The notes under the pieces were generated by a model. That model was not told the origin of the DNA. It did not search any database and saw nothing but the letters and a program-made list of their open reading frames with translations. A stretch of DNA of 45,155 nucleotides, taken from Planctomycetota bacterium. GTDB lineage: Bacteria; Planctomycetota; Planctomycetia; Pirellulales; Pirellulaceae. A program made the position numbers and the translations under genes. Below, piece after piece: positions 6,796-22,565 of this stretch (its first letter is position 1; each line of letters starts with the position of its first letter). Location of the stretch: NCBI GenBank assembly GCA_014381825.1, contig JACNKX010000085.1, positions 1 to 45,155 of the forward strand. Direction: 5' to 3'.

Positions 6796-6993
6796 CGGAG
6801 TGACCTCATGGGCGAATCGTCGTGAACTAGGGTGGTGAGCCATTCTAGCCGTTCGTCGAAGCGGCTCCCAGGTGCGGCTGTCGACATGCTGTCCGCCTTT
6901 GCAGAAGACTTTCGCGATGCTGCTAATGACAAGACACGCTTACTGTCTAGAATGTGTAAGTTGACGGACAACTCGTTACTCGGATTACAAGGG

Positions 6994-7932
6994 ATGTGGA
7001 ACATCGTGAGTGGTCGCGGCAAAAAGATAATCATCGGGACGATCTCTATTATGGTCGTTGTGTACGGCGGCATCGTCGTAATGAACAGCTTGTCGTCTCC
7101 GTCGACAGGTGTCGGTACGGCGCTGGCGGAACTCGCTCCCTGTCCCGATAGTCCGAATTGTGTATCAACTGATGCAAGCGATTCTGCACATGGGATCGAA
7201 CCGTTGCCACTGGCCGACTCCGAGCAGCAAACGGTTGCGATACTTGCATCGTCGGTCAGCGAGTTGCCAGGAGGTCAGAGCGTTCTGACAAAGGACAACT
7301 ATCTGCATTTCGAGTTTCGCAGCCCGTGGCTTCGGTTTGTTGACGACGTCGAGTTTCTTGTCGACACGGACGAAAATGTCGTTCACATGCGTTCTGCAGC
7401 ACGCGTTGGCCGATCGGACCTTGGCGTGAATCGCGAGCGGCTTGAAGAAATACGAAGGCGATACGAATCCGCGTTACGCGCGAATGTGAAACCAGAAATA
7501 GACGAGTTCGCAACGATCGAGAAAAGCGAAGCGGAATGGCAACGGCAATTGACTCCGGAACAGTACTATGTGGCGAGGAAGCATGGCACTGAGCGAGCGT
7601 TTACGGGACCGAACTGGGACAACAAAGCGTCGGGCACTTACTTGTGCGTGTGCTGCGAATTGCCGTTATTCAGCTCTGAGACGAAGTATGAATCGGGGAC
7701 GGGTTGGCCTAGCTTTTGGAATCCACTTAAAAAGACAAGCGTCGAGATGCAATCTGACGATAGTTTCTTCTCTCGACGAACCGAGGTTCACTGCCGTCGC
7801 TGCAAAGCGCACCTAGGGCATGTTTTCGAGGATGGTCCCGACCCAACCGGGCTGCGCTATTGCATGAACGGAGTCGCCATGCAGTTTGAGCCGACGAAGA
7901 AGGAGTCCGAAGAAGCTGGCGGCGAAGAATAG
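6994..7932 (+). CDS. msrB: Membrane-anchored DUF1499-MsrB fusion (methionine sulfoxide reductase)
   Basis: This protein of about 312 residues begins with a membrane segment (residues 11-30, IIIGTISIMVVVYGGIVVM). A DUF1499 domain follows at about 45-160 (APCPDSPNCVST ... FRSPWLRFVDDVEF ... RSAARVGRSDLGVNRERLEEI), then a full MsrB domain at about 180-302. MsrB reduces the R-form of methionine sulfoxide in proteins. The zinc cysteines are C218/C221 and C267/C270; the catalytic cysteine is C290 in RYCMNGV. With the anchor, the enzyme probably sits on the outer face of the membrane and repairs oxidised envelope proteins. The role of DUF1499 is unknown. Start is uncertain: ATG 6994 precedes the membrane segment, but no strong ribosome site is seen and upstream in-frame starts exist. 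Confidence 0.88.
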   Translation: MWNIVSGRGKKIIIGTISIMVVVYGGIVVMNSLSSPSTGVGTALAELAPCPDSPNCVSTDASDSAHGIEPLPLADSEQQTVAILASSVSELPGGQSVLTKDNYLHFEFRSPWLRFVDDVEFLVDTDENVVHMRSAARVGRSDLGVNRERLEEIRRRYESALRANVKPEIDEFATIEKSEAEWQRQLTPEQYYVARKHGTERAFTGPNWDNKASGTYLCVCCELPLFSSETKYESGTGWPSFWNPLKKTSVEMQSDDSFFSRRTEVHCRRCKAHLGHVFEDGPDPTGLRYCMNGVAMQFEPTKKESEEAGGEE

Positions 7933-9431: not shown

Positions 9432-9521
9432 TGGCTCTTCGCCCCACCTGCTGTGAACTGCCCTTGGTTTGCTATCATGCCGATTGACAGACGACAGTCG
9501 CCACTTCGTCCGGCAGCAACC

Positions 9522-10544
9522 ATGAGTGAATCTTACGACGCAATCCTTGTTGTTTCCTTTGGAGGCCCAGAAGGTCCTGAGGACGTCATGCCCTTTCTTG
9601 AGAACGTATTGCGCGGCAAGAACGTTCCCCGCGAGCGAATGCTCGAAGTCGCAGAGCACTATAAGCAGTTTGATGGCGTCAGTCCGATCAATCAGCAGTG
9701 TCGCGAGTTGATGGAGGCTCTCAAGAACGAATTGGCGGAGTACGGGCCCAACCTTCCGATTTATTGGGGCAATCGCAACTGGCAGCCGCTGCTGGCCGAT
9801 ACATTGCGTCAGATGAAGGTAGACGGAGTCAAACGTGCTTTGGCGTTCATGACTTCCGCGTTCAGCTCGTATTCCGGCTGTCGTCAATATCGAGAAGATG
9901 TCGCCCGCGCCCAAGCCGAAGTTGGTGAGGGAGCCTGCGAGATCCATAAGCTTCGAATGTTTTATAACCACCCAGGCTACATCGAGCCGGTGCGCGAACA
10001 CGTCGGAGCGGCACTAGATAGAATTCCTGCCGACCACCAAGCGACGACTCAAATCATTTACACCGCGCATAGCATTCCGAACACAATGGCCAATGGTTGC
10101 GATTACGAAAAACAACTCAAAGAGTCATGCCGCTTGGTAAGTGAAGCCTTCCCTGAACAGAGCTGGCGACTCGTCTATCAAAGCCGCAGCGGTCCACCTT
10201 CGCAGCCATGGCTCGAGCCCGATATCTGCGACTATTTGAAAGAGTTGCACGAGGCCGGCGAGGCGACCGATGTCATCGTTTCGCCGATCGGATTCATCTC
10301 CGACCACCTGGAAGTCCTGTTCGACCTCGATACAGAGGCCCAAGACCTTTGCGGTGAACTTGGATTGAATATGATCCGTGCGGCGACAGTCGGGAATCAC
10401 CCTCGATTCATTGAAATGATTCGCGAGCTGATCTTCGAGCGGGCGAGCGATGGCCCGAAGTCTTGCTGGGGCGAACTTGGTCCGAATCATGACGACTGCC
10501 CAGAAGATTGTTGTTTGCCGGAACGCCCGATGCGACGAGGTTAA
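9522..10544 (+). CDS. hemH: Ferrochelatase (haem synthesis), probable [2Fe-2S] type
   Basis: This enzyme of about 340 residues inserts ferrous iron into a porphyrin. The family signature is plain: DAILVVSFGGPEGPEDVMPF at the N-terminus, SAFSSYSGCRQYREDVARA, the catalytic His183 in YTAHSIP, QSRSGPP and SPIGFISDHLEVLFDLD. ATG 9522 (MSESYDAI) matches the start of homology; an in-frame ATG at 9453 would add 23 unrelated residues. Cys120 (in SGC) together with the C-terminal cluster C315, C326, C330 and C331 resembles the ligand set of [2Fe-2S] ferrochelatases. The sequence cannot show whether the substrate is protoporphyrin or coproporphyrin. The selenoprotein gene follows 45 bases downstream, possibly in the same transcript. 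Confidence 0.92.
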   Translation: MSESYDAILVVSFGGPEGPEDVMPFLENVLRGKNVPRERMLEVAEHYKQFDGVSPINQQCRELMEALKNELAEYGPNLPIYWGNRNWQPLLADTLRQMKVDGVKRALAFMTSAFSSYSGCRQYREDVARAQAEVGEGACEIHKLRMFYNHPGYIEPVREHVGAALDRIPADHQATTQIIYTAHSIPNTMANGCDYEKQLKESCRLVSEAFPEQSWRLVYQSRSGPPSQPWLEPDICDYLKELHEAGEATDVIVSPIGFISDHLEVLFDLDTEAQDLCGELGLNMIRAATVGNHPRFIEMIRELIFERASDGPKSCWGELGPNHDDCPEDCCLPERPMRRG

Positions 10545-10589
10545 ACGCACACGTAATGCTAGAACCTGACACGAGACAGGAGTAACAAC

Positions 10590-10937
10590 ATGTCGAAGAT
10601 CGATTGGAGCTATCACCGCCGTGGCTGAGTGACCTGCGGAAAGACGCAGGAGTTTCTTGCGAATGCCGATGTCGAAGTCAAAGAGGAACAAAACGCCACG
10701 AAAGAAACGATCAAAGCCGCAGACGCCTTGGTGTTGGCCCGAACGGTGAACGACATCTACGCCGCTAAAGGCAAGAAAGTTGTTCACGTGAATATGAAGA
10801 AAGACAAGCCGGACGACGAGACGCTTGCAAAACTGATTGTCGGCCCGAGCGGAAATCTTCGGGCCCCGACATTGAGAAAGGGTAAGACCTTGATCGTTGG
10901 GTTCAATCAAGAGACGTATGAACAATTGTTTGGTTGA
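10590..10937 (+). CDS. ArsC-like selenoprotein with UxxC redox motif (TGA read as selenocysteine)
   Basis: The frame from ATG 10590 has AGGAG seven bases upstream and reads MSKIDWSYHRRG, then TGA at 10626-10628, then VTCGKTQEFL and on to TGA at 10935. Read through, it gives 115 residues with a U13-V-T-C16-G-K motif. This matches the CxxC-x-K active site of ArsC/Spx/glutaredoxin-fold proteins, with selenocysteine at the reactive position. The C-terminal RAPTLRKGKTLIVGF is the usual cis-proline/strand region of that fold. A SECIS-like hairpin follows the TGA at 10645-10661. Conserved coding on both sides of the stop in one frame, with the stop exactly where Cys is expected, argues against a pseudogene. 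Likely a thiol/selenol oxidoreductase; substrate unknown. Ordinary gene callers would truncate it or start it late. The selA-D genes are not in the window. Confidence 0.88.
10645..10661 (+). promoter_or_regulatory. Candidate bacterial SECIS hairpin
   Basis: CGCAGGA and TCTTGCG can pair with one G-U wobble to give a 7-bp stem closed by the loop GTT. The loop starts 23 bases after the TGA, and its first base is G. This fits the known layout of bacterial SECIS elements: a small hairpin within the coding sequence shortly after the UGA, with a G at the start of the loop. A competing perfect 6-bp hairpin (10633-10650, CCTGCG/CGCAGG, loop GAAAGA) overlaps it but lies closer to the UGA than usual. 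Confidence 0.6.
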
Positions 10938-10958: not shown

Positions 10959-11780
10959 GTGAAACTATCGTTATCGGTTCGCATTGCCGAAGCGGCGTGT
11001 AAGACGAAGCTCAATGTGGAACTCGCGGAGATCTTACGCCTAGCCGTCGAGAACGGGTACGAGGCGGTTTGCATGCGAGCAAGCGTCGCAGGCATCCAGA
11101 CTTCCCAAGATAAACTTGGTCGCATTCGAGAGCAGGTTGCGCAAGCCGGACTCGTCGTTTCGATGGTGACCGCTGACTCTGATGTCCCGTTGAACAATGA
11201 GAACGGGCCAAACAGCCTTCGCGACATTACGCCAAGTCTGGATGTTGCCTCGGCTCTGGGCTGCGACTTGATTCGCGTCTGTCTGAAACAAGATTCGGAC
11301 ATTCCACTGGCGCGCGAAGCGGCGGACCTAGCTGCGGATCGCGGAATTCGATTGGCGCATCAATGTCATACGACGACGTTGTTCGAGCAGATCGATCGTT
11401 CGATCGAAGTCTTGCAAGCGATCGATCGAACGAACTTTGGACTGATCTACGAACCGGCGAACCTCATGCTGTGCGGCGAGCCTTATGATGTGACAGCACT
11501 GCAGCGTCTACAGCCCTATCTCATGAACGCCTATGTCCAGAATCATCGACTCGACGCGCAAGGCCCAGACGAGCTTGAGACTTGGTGTCACGGACCAGTA
11601 CGATTTCATCATCTCCCGCTTTGGGAAGATGGTGGCGTCGACTTTCGGGCTGCTGTTGATGGCCTAAAAGCCGTCGGGTATGACGCTTACTTAACCGTGC
11701 ATCAGCACTATGCCCACATCATGGGACCAGACGAAGCCGCGATTGAGAGCGGACGATATTTGCAAAAGCTTATCGGTTGA
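10959..11780 (+). CDS. Sugar phosphate isomerase/epimerase-like TIM-barrel protein
   Basis: This 273-residue protein starts at GTG 10959 with GAGGAG seven bases upstream, 21 bases after the selenoprotein stop. It is probably in the same operon. The pattern matches the AP_endonuc_2/xylose isomerase-like TIM-barrel superfamily (IolE/Hyi-like): LAVENGYEAVCMRAS, SALGCDLIRVCLKQ, GIRLAHQCHTTTLFEQ, NFGLIYEPANLMLCGE, HHLPLWEDGGVDFRAAVDGL and GYDAYLTVHQH, with His, Glu and Asp residues in the usual metal-ligand strands. Such proteins isomerise or epimerise sugars and cyclitols in the cytosol. The actual substrate cannot be told. Full length for the family. Confidence 0.82.
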   Translation: MKLSLSVRIAEAACKTKLNVELAEILRLAVENGYEAVCMRASVAGIQTSQDKLGRIREQVAQAGLVVSMVTADSDVPLNNENGPNSLRDITPSLDVASALGCDLIRVCLKQDSDIPLAREAADLAADRGIRLAHQCHTTTLFEQIDRSIEVLQAIDRTNFGLIYEPANLMLCGEPYDVTALQRLQPYLMNAYVQNHRLDAQGPDELETWCHGPVRFHHLPLWEDGGVDFRAAVDGLKAVGYDAYLTVHQHYAHIMGPDEAAIESGRYLQKLIG

Positions 11781-16078: not shown

Positions 16079-16187
16079 GGCCGGGAAAACCAGAATCGTG
16101 CCGACCTCGTCTAATCACCTGTCTGATGATGCGCAGCTACAATTGCAATGACAGAACGGGCCGACCGATATCGAAGGAGTTATGACA

Positions 16188-19100
16188 ATGAATCGTTTTG
16201 CAGCACTTGCGATCACCCCAGTAGTCGCGGCAGTGATCACGCTCGCGACGAGCCTCGAAGCGAACGAAATCGGATTTATCGAGGACTTTGCACTGGCGAA
16301 AGATCGCACCGAAGCGTTGAAGCGACTGATTCCTGGGTCGGAAGAGTATTACTACTTCAACTGCTTGCATCTGCAAAATACGGAGAAGTTCGATCAAGTC
16401 GAGGAGCTGCTCGCGGCTTGGATCAAGCGATACAACTACACCCCGCTAGTGCGGCAGATTCAGACGCGGCAGGCGTTATTGACTTACGAACGCGAGCCCG
16501 AGAAATCGCTCGAGTTTATTCGCCGTCAATTGGGCATCGAGTTCAATCACCAGCGCGAGACGCTGGGCGAGAAGCCGAATCTACCGACGCAGCTCAACCA
16601 GAAATTGATCAGCCGTGAACATCTCTCCCAGATCGCAAAGGTCAACCACAAGGATCTAAGTGGTTTCACCGACGCGGCGCTCGATTGGCTCGTCGCAACC
16701 GATCTCGATCCAGATCGCCGACGTCATTTGTTACAGCGTCTTGCGCGGCCCGACCATCCAAATCTCGCGAAGCTGATCGTCGACGACTTGAACTATCGGA
16801 ACAGCAAGCCATTTGGATCGATGGCGATTCACACTCAGCTCCTGACGGAACAGCTTGACGAGTGCTTGCGACTGAAGCCGGATTTGCTCAATCAAGCGAA
16901 CTTCGTAAACGCGTATCTCAGTAAGCTGCATCCGAGCGACGACGTCGAGTGGCAACATGAGACGGACGAGTACGAAGCGTATCTCGATCGGATGTGGCGA
17001 TTCGTGTCGCGATTGGCTCCGGTTCATAACTCGTTGAAGACGCACGTCCTGTTCCATCGCCTGACGTTTGATCGCGCGAGAGGCAGCCACGACAAAGACC
17101 GCTTTATGACGTACATCCGGCTGCCGCGAAACGTCGCGTACATCGAGCCAAAGTTTTTGCAGTCGAATGAGAATCGGCGTTACGCTGCCGATCTGAACGC
17201 AAACTTTGAAGCGTTCACGTTGCTACCACCTGTCCGAAACGACGAGCCACTCATTCGGAGCTACTTTCACCACTTTTTTGTGAACGAGACGGCGACGAAG
17301 CCTTACGAACCGTTTATCAGCGATACCTACCTGCGTCACAATCTCGCCGAGACGAAGATCGTGAACGGGCTTGGCGAACCAGAGCAATGGTACTCGCTGC
17401 TGCCGCCAGATCGTTATCAAGCGTTAAAAGATCGGATTGACTTGGACTTCGCACCGACGAATCCCAAGTTCTTCACCGCGAACGACCCGGTCAGTCTCGA
17501 CTTGCATGTCAAGAACGTCGAGACGCTGATCGTTCGTGTCTTCGAGATCAACACGAAGAATTACTATCGCGAGCATAAACGCGAAGTGAACGCCGATATC
17601 AACCTCGACGGGATGGTCGCGAACAACGAACAGACGTTTGCGTACAAGGAACCACCGCTCCGTCGCGCTCGCCGACACTTCGACTTTCCCGCATTAACCA
17701 AGCCGGGCGTCTACGTCGTTGACTTCATCGGCAACGGCATGAACAGCCGCGTTGTCGTCCGCAAAGGACAGCTTCGCCATCTGGTCCAAACCACGAGCTC
17801 GGGCCAGTTGTTTACCGTGTTGGACGAGAAGAACGAGCGCGTGCAAGACGCTTCGATCTGGCTGGCGGGGCATGAATACCTGCCCGAGGAAGACGGCAGG
17901 ATTCTGGTGCCTTTTTCGACACAGCCCGGTCGACAGCCGATTATCTTATCACGAGGTGACTTTTCCTCGTTGGCGTTCTTTCAACATCAGGCGGAAAACT
18001 ACCAACTTGCCGCTGGTATCTATGTCGATCGCGAGTCGCTGCTGAAGCGGACCATTGTGCCTGTCGTGGTCCGACCGGGTTTGTACTTGAATGGCAGTCC
18101 GGTTGGCATTGCTGATTTGGAAGATGTTCGCTTGACGATCGCGTCGGTCGATCACGATGGTGTTTCGTCGACGAAAGAAGTGAAAGACTTCAAGCTGTTC
18201 GAGGATCGCGAATCAATCTATGAGTTCCAAGTTCCGCCTCGGCTCTCGCAACTCACGTTCACACTGCAAGCCAAGATTCAGAGCTTGAGTCAGAGCAAGA
18301 AGATCGATCTACAAGCTGCAGACACCTATCAGCTAAACGAGATCGATAAGAGCGAGAAGGTTGCCTGTTTGTACTTTGCCAAGATCAACGATGTCTACGT
18401 CGTCGAGTCACGAGGAAAGTCCGGAGAATCGCGGCCAGATCGACCTGTGGTCCTATCGTTACAGCATCGGGATTTCAGCTTCCCGATGACCGCGACGGTT
18501 CAAACCGATCACACGGGCACCGTCGCACTTGGACCGCTCGAAGGCGTCGTGTCGGTCACGGCGACCGATCCTGACGGCACAGCGCAATCGTGGAGCCTGT
18601 CGCGTGACGAGTACTCCTATCACCAATCGATTCACGCTGCTGCCGGTGCCACGATTGAGATCCCTTACATGGGCGCGCGTGACAAGCCAGCGCGTGATGA
18701 GCTTTCGTTGCTGGAAGTTCGCGGCAAGACTTTCGTGGCCGATCGTTTTAACGCGATACGGTTCAAGGGTGGCATGCTCCAACTGCGCGGCTTGCCACGG
18801 GGTGATTACGACCTGCTGCTGAAAGATCGCGGCCATAGCTTTAGGGGGCACCGCATTCGTGTTCGCGTTGCGGATGGTAAGGTTAACGAAGGCTATGCGC
18901 TGGGAAGTTCGCGTCATCTCGAATCACGACGCGCGAAGCCATTGCAAATCGCGAGTATCGAACGTGCTGAAGATCAGCTTCGAATTCTTGTCAACAACAG
19001 CACGAAGTTCTCGCGCGTCCACATCTACGCGACGCGATATCGGCCCGCCTTTTCGGTGTTCAGCAAACTCGTTGGCGTCGTCGATCCCGAACCGTACCAG

Positions 19101-22100
19101 GTCGATCCAGGGCAGATGACTTCATTGTATGTGGCGGGAAGGAGCATCGGAGACGAGTATCAATACATCATCGATCGCCGCTATGCGAAGAAGTACCCCG
19201 GCGTGCTCGTCGAGCGGCCGAGCGTTTTGTTGAATCCGTGGGCAGTGCGCAAGACGGAATCGGGGAAGCAGGATGCTCAGACCGGCGACGATTTCGCCCC
19301 GTCTGCTGAACCATCAAGCGAGATGTCGCAACGAGCTGCGGCTGCAGCGGCACAGGTTGCTCGGCGTGGCGACTTCGCCAACCTCGACTTTCTCGGCGAA
19401 GCTTCGGTAGTTCTCGCGAATCTGCAACCGGACAAGGACGGAATCGTCGTGATATCGCTCGACGAACTAGGATCGCATCAGGACTTGCATATCGTAGCCG
19501 TCGACCCGCAAAGCACCGTCTATCGGAACGTGTCATTAGACGAGAAGCCGATGAAGCTTGTTGACCAGCGGCTGTTAACCGGACTTGATCCTGAGCGGCA
19601 CTTCACGCAACAGAAACGCGTTAGCGTCGTCGCGAAGGGTGAGCAGTTCGTGCTGCCCGACATCGCGACATCACGATTCGAAGCCTACGACACGCTTCCT
19701 CGCGTGTACTCGGTGTATGCGACGCTAAGCGGCGATCCGAAGTTGGCCGAATTTCGCTTCATTCTCAACTGGCCGAATCTCAAGACCGCTGAAAAGCAGG
19801 CATTGTACTCGAAGTATGCCTGCCACGAACTGAACTTCTTCCTGCTGAAGAAGGATCGCAAGTTCTTCGACCAAATCGTACGGCCCTATCTCACCAACAA
19901 GCGTGACAAGACGCTGCTCGATGATTGGCTGCTGCAGTACGATCTTGAGGAGTACTTGCGAGCGTGGAATTACTCGCGGCTCAACATCGCCGAGCGAATC
20001 TTGCTATCGCAACGAGTCGCCGACGATCGGCAGCACACAACGCGCGACGTCCTTGATCAGTTTTCGCTGCTCACGCCCGACACGAATCGACTGAACCAGC
20101 TATTCCTCACCGCGGTTAAAGGACGTGCGCTGGAAGCGAGCGACCATTGGGGCTTTGAAGCTGCCAAGGATGGATTTATTTCTAACCTGATGGATGTAGA
20201 TATGGATGTAGATGTAGAAGCGTCTTCCGTGCCGTTGATGCGCGGGCGAGCCGGTGTGGCCTATGGAGGTGCCGCAGCACCTGCAGGTGCTGCGGCCGAC
20301 AAGCTATTCGGAGCCGTACCTGCCGCTGACGATTCTTCCGAAAGCGAATTGATCGCGGGCAAACCAGCAGCGAAACGTCGCGCTCTCAGCGTTAGACCTC
20401 GCATTGCGCGCGAGAGAGCGTCAGTCGCTGGTGATTATTTATCTTACTACTCTCGCTTGGGTCGTAAGAGCGGCAGGGTTCGCGCTCTGTATGAATTGCT
20501 CGACAAGACCCAGGAATGGGCCGAGAACAACTATTACCACTTGCCGATAGAACAACAGCTCGCCGGACTCGTGTCCGTCAATGCTTTCTGGCGCGACTAT
20601 GCGGAGCATGATCCTCGTCAACCGTTCCGCTCGACGAACTTCGCGGATGCCTCGCGAAACTTTACAGAGATGATGTTGGCGTTGTCGCTTCTCGATTTGC
20701 CATTTGAGTCGGCAGAGCATGCCACAGATTTCGCCGATGGTAAGATGACGCTGACGGCTGGCAGCCCGATGATCGTCTTCCACGAGGAAATTCGAGAGGC
20801 GAGCGAAGTCGTCGAACAAACACCGATTCTGGTCAGCCAGAACTTCTTTCGTCACAACGATCGCTATCGGCAAATCAACAACGAGCGGCTGGACAAATTT
20901 GTGACCGACGAGTTCCTCGTCCACACGGTCTACGGCTGTCAAGTTGTCCTCACGAATCCAACATCGTCGCCTCAGAAGCTTGACGTTCTGTTACAGGTCC
21001 CGCTCGGTGCTATCCCGGTGTTGAACGGTCACGAGACGCGCAGCGTGCAGCTCGATCTTCAGCCTTACAACACACAAACGGTCGAGTACCACTTCTACTT
21101 CCCAGCCGCAGGTCGCTATCCACACTATCCCGTTCATATCGCGAAGAACGAACAATTGTTGGCTCACGCTGATGCGACGACGCTGACAGTTGTTGAGAAG
21201 TTGAGCCGCATCGATCGCGAATCGTGGCCTTACCTCTCGCAGTATGGTTCTGCAGAAGACGTTCTGGAGTACCTTCGCCAGAACAATCTTCATCAAACGA
21301 ACTTGGACAAGATCGCGTTTCGTATGGGAAACAAGGCGTTCTTCCTAGAAGTTGTCGAGCTGCTCGAACGACGGCACGCGTACAATCACACGCTGTGGTC
21401 GTACGGCATTAAACACAACGACATGCCGGCGATCAGCCAATACCTGCAACACGCTGATGGCTTCGTACAACTATGTGGTGCCGCAATTGATACTCCGCTG
21501 CTTCGCGTCGACCCAATCGCCAGGCATTCGTATCAGCACCTGGACTACCGTCCGTTGGTCAACGCCCGAGCACATCAACTCGGGCGAAGGCGTCAGATCC
21601 TGAATGCTCGACTGCATCAGCAGTACCACCAGCTGCTTACGATCCTGAGCTGCGGACGAGATCTCAGCCAAGACGACTTGATGGCCGTTACGTATTACCT
21701 GTTGCTTCAGGATCGCGTCGCCGAAGCGATGGACTTCTTCAGCCGTGTGAACGCCGCCGACCTAACGACGTCGCTTCAGCACGATTACTTTACCGCTTAC
21801 TTGAATCTATATCGAGCCGATACCGACGCGGCGCGAGAGATAACGTCACGCTACGCAGGCTATCCCATTGATCGCTGGCGGAACGCGTTCGTTTCGATCG
21901 ATCGACAGCTGGACGAGATCAGCAGCGGCGACGTCGAACTCGTTGATCCGGAGAATCGCGACCAGCGTCAGGCCGAGTTAGCTGCAACCGCGCCGTCGTT
22001 CGACTTGAAGGTCGAGGCGAAGAAGGTTCAACTAGACTACCAGAACTTAGAGCGCGTGCTTGTCAACTACTACCTGATGGACATCGAGTTGCTATTTAGC

Positions 22101-22565
22101 CGCAATCCATTTGTACAGCATTCGTCGGGGCAGTTTTCACAGATTCTCCCAAACTTGACCGACACGATCGAGTTGCCCGCGCGCGGCAAGAAGTTCGAGT
22201 TCGCCTTGCCAAACGAACTTCTGAACCGCAACGTACTAGTCGAACTTGTCGGTGCGGGACAAACAAAGTCGCAGGCTTATTTCTCGAACTCGTTGTCCGT
22301 ACAGTTGATCGAGAACTACGGTCAGTTGCGAGTCACCGCAGCGGGCACTGGAAAACCCTTGTCAACGGTTTATGCCAAGGCGTATGCTCGGATGAAGGAT
22401 GGTTCGGTACGTTTCTTCAAGGATGGCTACACCGACTTGCGTGGCCGCTTTGATTACTCGTCGCTTAACACGAACGAACTTGACAACGTCGAGCGATTCG
22501 CCCTGCTGATCCTGAGCGAAGAACACGGAGCCATCGTGCGAGAGGCAACTCCGCCGAAACGGTAA
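16188..22565 (+). CDS. Giant exported protein, alpha-2-macroglobulin-like layout, no thioester
   Basis: This 2125-residue protein is of unknown function. ATG 16188 is chosen because AAGGAG lies eight bases upstream; ATG 16182 is too close to it. It has a signal peptide (MNRFAALAITPVVAAVITLATSLEA). The first 430 residues are helical and repeat-like. From about residue 440 come beta-rich stretches resembling macroglobulin domains (FTANDPVSLDLHVKNVETL, KPGVYVVDFIGNG, VVRPGLYLNGSPVG). A low-complexity linker near residues 1335-1390 (MDVDMDVDVE, then Ala/Gly-rich) separates a C-terminal part of alternating helical and beta segments. The GCGEQ thioester of classical alpha-2-macroglobulins was not found. 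A secreted or periplasmic scaffold or protease-trap-like role is inference only. The neighbours give no direct clue. Confidence 0.8.
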   Translation: MNRFAALAITPVVAAVITLATSLEANEIGFIEDFALAKDRTEALKRLIPGSEEYYYFNCLHLQNTEKFDQVEELLAAWIKRYNYTPLVRQIQTRQALLTYEREPEKSLEFIRRQLGIEFNHQRETLGEKPNLPTQLNQKLISREHLSQIAKVNHKDLSGFTDAALDWLVATDLDPDRRRHLLQRLARPDHPNLAKLIVDDLNYRNSKPFGSMAIHTQLLTEQLDECLRLKPDLLNQANFVNAYLSKLHPSDDVEWQHETDEYEAYLDRMWRFVSRLAPVHNSLKTHVLFHRLTFDRARGSHDKDRFMTYIRLPRNVAYIEPKFLQSNENRRYAADLNANFEAFTLLPPVRNDEPLIRSYFHHFFVNETATKPYEPFISDTYLRHNLAETKIVNGLGEPEQWYSLLPPDRYQALKDRIDLDFAPTNPKFFTANDPVSLDLHVKNVETLIVRVFEINTKNYYREHKREVNADINLDGMVANNEQTFAYKEPPLRRARRHFDFPALTKPGVYVVDFIGNGMNSRVVVRKGQLRHLVQTTSSGQLFTVLDEKNERVQDASIWLAGHEYLPEEDGRILVPFSTQPGRQPIILSRGDFSSLAFFQHQAENYQLAAGIYVDRESLLKRTIVPVVVRPGLYLNGSPVGIADLEDVRLTIASVDHDGVSSTKEVKDFKLFEDRESIYEFQVPPRLSQLTFTLQAKIQSLSQSKKIDLQAADTYQLNEIDKSEKVACLYFAKINDVYVVESRGKSGESRPDRPVVLSLQHRDFSFPMTATVQTDHTGTVALGPLEGVVSVTATDPDGTAQSWSLSRDEYSYHQSIHAAAGATIEIPYMGARDKPARDELSLLEVRGKTFVADRFNAIRFKGGMLQLRGLPRGDYDLLLKDRGHSFRGHRIRVRVADGKVNEGYALGSSRHLESRRAKPLQIASIERAEDQLRILVNNSTKFSRVHIYATRYRPAFSVFSKLVGVVDPEPYQVDPGQMTSLYVAGRSIGDEYQYIIDRRYAKKYPGVLVERPSVLLNPWAVRKTESGKQDAQTGDDFAPSAEPSSEMSQRAAAAAAQVARRGDFANLDFLGEASVVLANLQPDKDGIVVISLDELGSHQDLHIVAVDPQSTVYRNVSLDEKPMKLVDQRLLTGLDPERHFTQQKRVSVVAKGEQFVLPDIATSRFEAYDTLPRVYSVYATLSGDPKLAEFRFILNWPNLKTAEKQALYSKYACHELNFFLLKKDRKFFDQIVRPYLTNKRDKTLLDDWLLQYDLEEYLRAWNYSRLNIAERILLSQRVADDRQHTTRDVLDQFSLLTPDTNRLNQLFLTAVKGRALEASDHWGFEAAKDGFISNLMDVDMDVDVEASSVPLMRGRAGVAYGGAAAPAGAAADKLFGAVPAADDSSESELIAGKPAAKRRALSVRPRIARERASVAGDYLSYYSRLGRKSGRVRALYELLDKTQEWAENNYYHLPIEQQLAGLVSVNAFWRDYAEHDPRQPFRSTNFADASRNFTEMMLALSLLDLPFESAEHATDFADGKMTLTAGSPMIVFHEEIREASEVVEQTPILVSQNFFRHNDRYRQINNERLDKFVTDEFLVHTVYGCQVVLTNPTSSPQKLDVLLQVPLGAIPVLNGHETRSVQLDLQPYNTQTVEYHFYFPAAGRYPHYPVHIAKNEQLLAHADATTLTVVEKLSRIDRESWPYLSQYGSAEDVLEYLRQNNLHQTNLDKIAFRMGNKAFFLEVVELLERRHAYNHTLWSYGIKHNDMPAISQYLQHADGFVQLCGAAIDTPLLRVDPIARHSYQHLDYRPLVNARAHQLGRRRQILNARLHQQYHQLLTILSCGRDLSQDDLMAVTYYLLLQDRVAEAMDFFSRVNAADLTTSLQHDYFTAYLNLYRADTDAAREITSRYAGYPIDRWRNAFVSIDRQLDEISSGDVELVDPENRDQRQAELAATAPSFDLKVEAKKVQLDYQNLERVLVNYYLMDIELLFSRNPFVQHSSGQFSQILPNLTDTIELPARGKKFEFALPNELLNRNVLVELVGAGQTKSQAYFSNSLSVQLIENYGQLRVTAAGTGKPLSTVYAKAYARMKDGSVRFFKDGYTDLRGRFDYSSLNTNELDNVERFALLILSEEHGAIVREATPPKR
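20190..20213 (+). repeat. Two tandem 12-base repeats in the giant gene
   Basis: ATGGATGTAGAT occurs twice head to tail, followed by a partial copy (GTAGA). In frame this encodes the MDVDMDVDVE start of the low-complexity linker. Such slippage-prone repeats can vary in copy number without breaking the frame. Confidence 0.8.

Follow-up and report, generated by a model that had tools for sequence, protein, structure and literature searches.

A probable ArsC-related selenoprotein gene of the NF041106 family with an in-frame TGA in a Planctomycetota genome

Described relatives and the reading frame at 10590-10937

ArsC-like selenoproteins have been reported from the Sargasso Sea (PMC1088965) and from deltaproteobacteria (PMC1794560), and selenocysteine (Sec) genes were described in planctomycetes from Porphyra (PMC4807772). 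The Global Ocean Sampling selenoproteome of 2008 lists an 'Arsenate reductase 2' (cd03032) with a UxxC motif and 42 sequences (PMC2398784). More recently, a 2026 review listed an 'Arsenate reductase-like protein, NF041106, UxxC', for which it cites its reference 61; the entry directly before reference 62 in that review is PMC2398784 (PMC13188914).

In this study, we analysed a window of 45,155 nucleotides from a Planctomycetota assembly (the whole stretch of DNA, of which the gene is a small part). A putative selenoprotein gene, assigned by sequence and profile match to NF041106, occupies positions 10590-10937 of the plus strand. Its start codon ATG (10590-10592) follows a ribosome-binding site AGGAG (10578-10582, plus strand) at a spacing of 7 nt. 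The frame meets a TGA at codon 13 (10626-10628), continues for 102 sense codons and ends with a TGA stop at 10935-10937, so that the product has 115 residues including Sec13. Translation from ATG 10590 reads MSKIDWSYHRRG-U-VTCGKTQEF.... Judged from the sequence and the codons of homologues, the in-frame TGA most likely encodes selenocysteine as the first residue of the motif U13-V-T-C16, which has the UxxC form of the UxxC or CxxC motif expected of NF041106 members. Cys16, which presumably serves as the resolving thiol, is encoded at 10635-10637. In the table-11 list of open reading frames (at least 100 aa), the sole entry in this frame is a 102-aa ORF from GTG 10629, which has neither the N-terminus nor the active residue. 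The preliminary description had drawn attention to ATG 10590, the AGGAG, the TGA at the U of UxxC and the 102 further residues, all of which are borne out by the sequence. It had also foreseen that standard annotation would lose the N-terminus, which is what happens; the catalytic residue of this gene is missed under the table-11 reading, and the reading of the raw sequence was right.

The read-through protein matches the NCBIfam model NF041106 'ArsC family (seleno)protein' (ArsC_rel_Se_1) with 144.1 bits (cut-off 85), from protein residue 4 and over model positions 1-107 of 107. It also matches Pfam ArsC (27.8 bits, cut-off 24). Among 392 genomes of the phylum, NF041106 had matches in 112 and matches above the cut-off in 80, whereas none of 14 control genomes reached the cut-off; the match table of the 392 genomes comprises 118 places, 81 above and 37 below the cut-off. 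Six more relatives came from named records, five of them MAGs of Planctomycetota, Planctomycetales or Planctomyces and one from Bryobacterales (Acidobacteriota). In an alignment of 70 proteins (the window protein and 69 of 76 loci, omitting the window's duplicate and six near-copies), R10, C16, G85, G88, L90, P93 and G104 are invariant. Searches of plasmid and phage collections gave no match at E ≤ 1e-5.

Selenocysteine decoding and the codon at the motif

The host assembly has 9.69 Mb in 238 contigs and is 99.93% complete with 2.71% contamination. It contains a tRNA-Sec (67 bits, gathering score 47) with the anticodon tca (UCA), SelB (352.3 bits, cut-off 242.25), SelA (470.1 bits, cut-off 22.8) on the same contig C59 as SelB, and SelD (345.4 bits, cut-off 125). 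A Sec decoding system had been predicted from the window gene, and each of its four components was indeed found above its cut-off in the same assembly; since these genes lie on contigs other than the window, they can be ascribed to the organism only so far as the assembly is clean. In the 14 control genomes, the tRNA-Sec model alone exceeded its cut-off in five, and SelB, SelA and SelD did so in two each. The SelD gene of this genome (L022, minus strand) also has a TGA in frame, close to the N-terminus (ASCAGUAGK), and therefore SelD itself looks like a selenoprotein. A second SelD-like match (L023, 284 bits) lies in an open frame of 741 codons on contig C45.

We compared the motif codon in 76 family genes, consisting of 30 NF041106 loci (one being the window's own copy), 40 further NF041106 places (39 above the cut-off, plus G107 below it) and the six relatives from named records; 12 of the 81 places above the cut-off were left out of this comparison. 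TGA stands there in 65 genes, a Cys codon in 10 and GAC (Asp) in one. The preliminary description had proposed to check whether homologues have TGA or Cys at position 13, which is so in 75 of the 76; the sole exception, L071, is a distant copy with 36% identity. L071 (positions 1983-2330; G045:C12) has kept the resolving Cys beside the Asp codon at the Sec position, and its genome, which is SelB-positive, also carries a TGA copy (L081, G045:C5). On sequence grounds, the frame with TGA at codon 13 is more than chance, because it gives a match of 144.1 bits to the family model and because this codon is TGA in 65 of the 76 family genes. The table-11 reading would have the gene start at GTG 10629, or be a remnant that has lost its active residue, with the TGA serving as the normal stop of a fragment upstream. 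This is highly improbable, as the residues before the TGA lie within the family profile (match from residue 4, model positions 1-107) and the same TGA recurs in 65 of 76 widely diverged genes.

All 81 places above the NF041106 cut-off were then set against SelB; the count excludes the 37 that scored lower, of which 5 have TGA and 32 do not. One TGA is present in 70 of the 81 and no stop in 11. The SelB search of the same 392 genomes gave matches above the cut-off in 235, and a genome was called SelB-positive when its best SelB E was under 1e-70. SelB-positive genomes host 68 of the 70 TGA forms and 3 of the 11 non-TGA forms (Fisher p 2e-7, with genes treated as independent despite their kinship). 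The other two TGA forms come from G302 and G225, genomes that are 79% and 84% complete and in which no SelB match reached this threshold. The three non-TGA forms in SelB-positive genomes (G150, G135 and G045) are all from a single family group, f44. The phylum-wide comparison is a clean case of Sec/Cys exchange, with 8 of the 11 non-TGA forms in SelB-negative genomes. Mapping the Sec label onto a tree of these 76 proteins takes five changes, four of them forced by well supported branches. The SelB-negative Cys forms fall in three parts of the tree, one with six members of family group f4, one with G141 and one with G268. Built from few columns, with 22 open forks and midpoint rooting, this tree does not fix the direction of change between Sec and Cys. 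A reading of the TGA as Trp or another standard residue, through near-cognate suppression or a changed code, is scarcely conceivable, and nothing in its favour came to light: the 11 non-TGA codons stand for Cys in 10 cases and Asp in one but never for Trp, the TGA form goes together with SelB, and the gene's own stop is TGA.

A predicted SECIS hairpin downstream of the TGA

RNA folding predicts a bacterial SECIS hairpin at 10645-10661 (plus strand), with a 7-bp stem including one G-U pair and the apical loop GUU at 10652-10654, 23 nt from the TGA at 10626. The published bacterial SECIS model has a loop of 3-9 nt that carries a G within its first two positions, a stem of 4-16 bp, a distance of 16-37 nt from UGA and an energy of at most -7.5 kcal/mol (PMC13188914). 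With its GUU loop, 7 bp and 23 nt, the hairpin falls within this geometry; its energy is borderline, because the bare stem has -7.1 kcal/mol, slightly short of the published limit. The fold of 10641-10664 (24 nt) has -8.2 kcal/mol, compared with a mean of -2.64 in 200 shuffles, none of which was as stable.

Covariation in a fixed register is weak in the family: in 63 distinct TGA rows, 49.4% of the stem positions are paired against 43.6% in shuffles, and shifting the stem by one column raises pairing to 63.3%. The stem therefore seems to shift between relatives, and for this reason a test against synonymous codons was chosen over covariation. The test covered nt 15-39 from UGA and used local codon usage, with genes treated as independent though they are related. 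In the window, this stretch has z -2.96. Mean z is -1.56 in the 65 TGA genes (Wilcoxon p 1e-11), compared with -0.25 in the 11 non-TGA genes (p 0.32), and the difference between the two sets has a one-sided p of 0.001 with kinship ignored. In four later control stretches, the TGA genes have mean z of -0.71, -0.29, -0.41 and -0.22 (p 2e-5, 0.02, 0.03 and 0.13). These stretches are also a little more stable than expected from synonymous codons, so that the signal is strongest, though not alone, after the TGA. Over a longer stretch of 48 nt from UGA, the two sets lie closer together: TGA genes average z -1.59 and non-TGA genes -1.00 with dinucleotide shuffles (p 0.12), and -1.36 and -0.62, respectively, with synonymous codons (p 0.03), again with kinship ignored.

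In the window, the 48-nt fold from UGA prefers a competing hairpin, in which 10633-10638 pairs with 10645-10650; over these 48 nt, the window has z of -0.45 against synonymous codons. This hairpin (10633-10650) excludes the SECIS stem and was considered as a possible switch. With codons +1 to +5 resampled, no excess of the alternative pairing was found in the 65 TGA genes (mean z 0.08), and it was therefore taken as a by-product of coding. Among the ten genes listed, the pairing is outstanding in L057 (z -2.75) and L050 (z -2.55), while the window has -1.17; the folds of L050, L057 and L060 show a hairpin like that at 10633-10650. In the nt 15-39 folds, G lies within the first two loop places in 46 of the 65 TGA genes. 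When genes were scanned with the whole published SECIS model, 34 of 65 with TGA passed, as did 3 of 11 without. As coded here, the published model misses part of the family members.

Proposed function and comparison with described families

The locus very probably encodes a 115-residue selenoprotein with Sec13 inserted by means of SelB and the hairpin, probably a cytosolic thiol-disulfide oxidoreductase with a thioredoxin fold of the ArsC/Spx type. Building on the computed reading frame, family match, Sec machinery, hairpin and TGA/Cys exchange, we infer a course for Sec insertion, for the redox chemistry and for the reductant. With the ribosome at UGA 10626, SelB carrying Sec-tRNA(UCA) would bind the hairpin 10645-10661, and this binding would lead to insertion of Sec13. 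The fold and the motif suggest a selenol-disulfide oxidoreductase, in which Sec13 would attack the oxidised substrate and Cys16 would resolve the mixed bond as a selenenyl sulfide. The reduced form may then be restored by a cell thiol or by thioredoxin.

The gene neighbourhood gives no substrate clue that is common across the family. The upstream neighbour in the window is a ferrochelatase (9453-10544, plus strand, profile match), which also precedes the gene in L055 and L056, its two closest relatives, and the downstream neighbour is a xylose-isomerase-like TIM barrel protein (10959-11780, plus strand, Pfam match). Among the 105 flanking frames of family loci that were scanned (of 146 listed), no Pfam family occurred in more than three, and ferrochelatase was found in two. 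Within single lineages some neighbours do recur: in one family group, 12 loci have an upstream neighbour in common and 11 a downstream neighbour. L034 belongs to these loci; a BtuF-like protein (74.2 bits, cut-off 234) precedes its family gene and a rhomboid-like one (28.5 bits, cut-off 84) follows it. Elsewhere in the window, a plus-strand frame at 6832-7932 fuses a DUF1499 domain with an MsrB (SelR) domain, and a single open frame of 2127 codons spans 16182-22565 (plus strand).

The structure model of the window protein has a mean pLDDT of 89.2. Foldseek matched eight PDB chains at E ≤ 0.001, all of them Spx or the Spx-family protein SMU.1142C, with a best E of 2.9e-5, TM of 0.53-0.56 and rmsd of 6.5-7.9; YffB and ArsC-related proteins follow close behind. 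A sequence-profile search of the PDB placed the putative arsenate reductase 2m46 first (E 7.9e-10) and Spx chains as matches 2 to 7 (best E 1.1e-9). The preliminary description had called the protein ArsC-like, a name that stands for the fold and not for an activity. A role as selenocysteine arsenate reductase, at which the family label hints, is unlikely. The Pfam ArsC match, the top rank of 2m46 and the published label 'Arsenate reductase-like protein' (PMC13188914) speak for such a function, but the equivalog model TIGR00014 (arsC) gave no match at E ≤ 0.001, and a distinct gene of the genome encodes a canonical ArsC (L001, TIGR00014 134.5 bits) with the motif CTKS where the window protein has UVTC. 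In a weak profile alignment, the window protein has A, A and F at the places of the L001 arginines in IRRKE, ERP and GRPPE; arginines of this kind in ArsC bind arsenate. With a probability of 70% and an identity of 16%, the alignment may be shifted by one residue. In the same alignment, the conserved R91 of the window protein is one place off the ERP arginine of L001. Arsenate reductase is therefore doubtful as the function, as the arsC model does not match, a canonical ArsC is encoded separately and the nearest folds are Spx.

The fold ranking could also point to an Spx-like regulator, which would bind RNA polymerase and sense redox state through the Sec-Cys pair. The eight Foldseek chains and the six Spx chains in the profile search would agree with such a role, which is nevertheless quite improbable, because the Spx/MgsR model TIGR01617 scores 33.1 bits, under its cut-off of 75.05, and because YffB and ArsC-related proteins rank near Spx in both searches. 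One might speculate, with small prospect of being right, that the UxxC protein is a redox regulator with a Sec-Cys switch rather than a plain reductase; in that case, gene control in many planctomycetes would be tied directly to selenium supply and also to peroxide or metal stress. Our literature search found no work that joins Spx and selenoproteins with UxxC, or with arsenate reductase, and it found NF041106 in a single paper.

For the preferred reading as a thiol-disulfide oxidoreductase, Spx (PDB 1z3e and 6gho) is a structural relative: the fold is alike, and the CTSC of Spx stands opposite the UxxC of the window protein in the profile alignment. However, Spx has Cys where the window protein has Sec, identity is 19-22%, and the window protein stays under the Spx/MgsR cut-off. 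The Sec arsenate reductase of the Sargasso Sea (PMC1088965; TIGR00014 in PMC13188914) belongs to the same superfamily, and Sec likewise replaces the catalytic Cys, but it has UxxS and a separate family model, whereas the window protein has UxxC. 'Arsenate reductase 2', known from marine metagenomes (PMC2398784), shares an ArsC-type domain with UxxC; here the comparison is one of domain and motif. With the NF041106 family the window protein shares a full-length match above the cut-off and the UxxC motif, and nothing essential sets it apart. In summary, the selenoprotein finding is correct and is not new in kind, because the family has already been catalogued (NF041106, PMC13188914; 'Arsenate reductase 2', PMC2398784), and the window protein is a further member of it.
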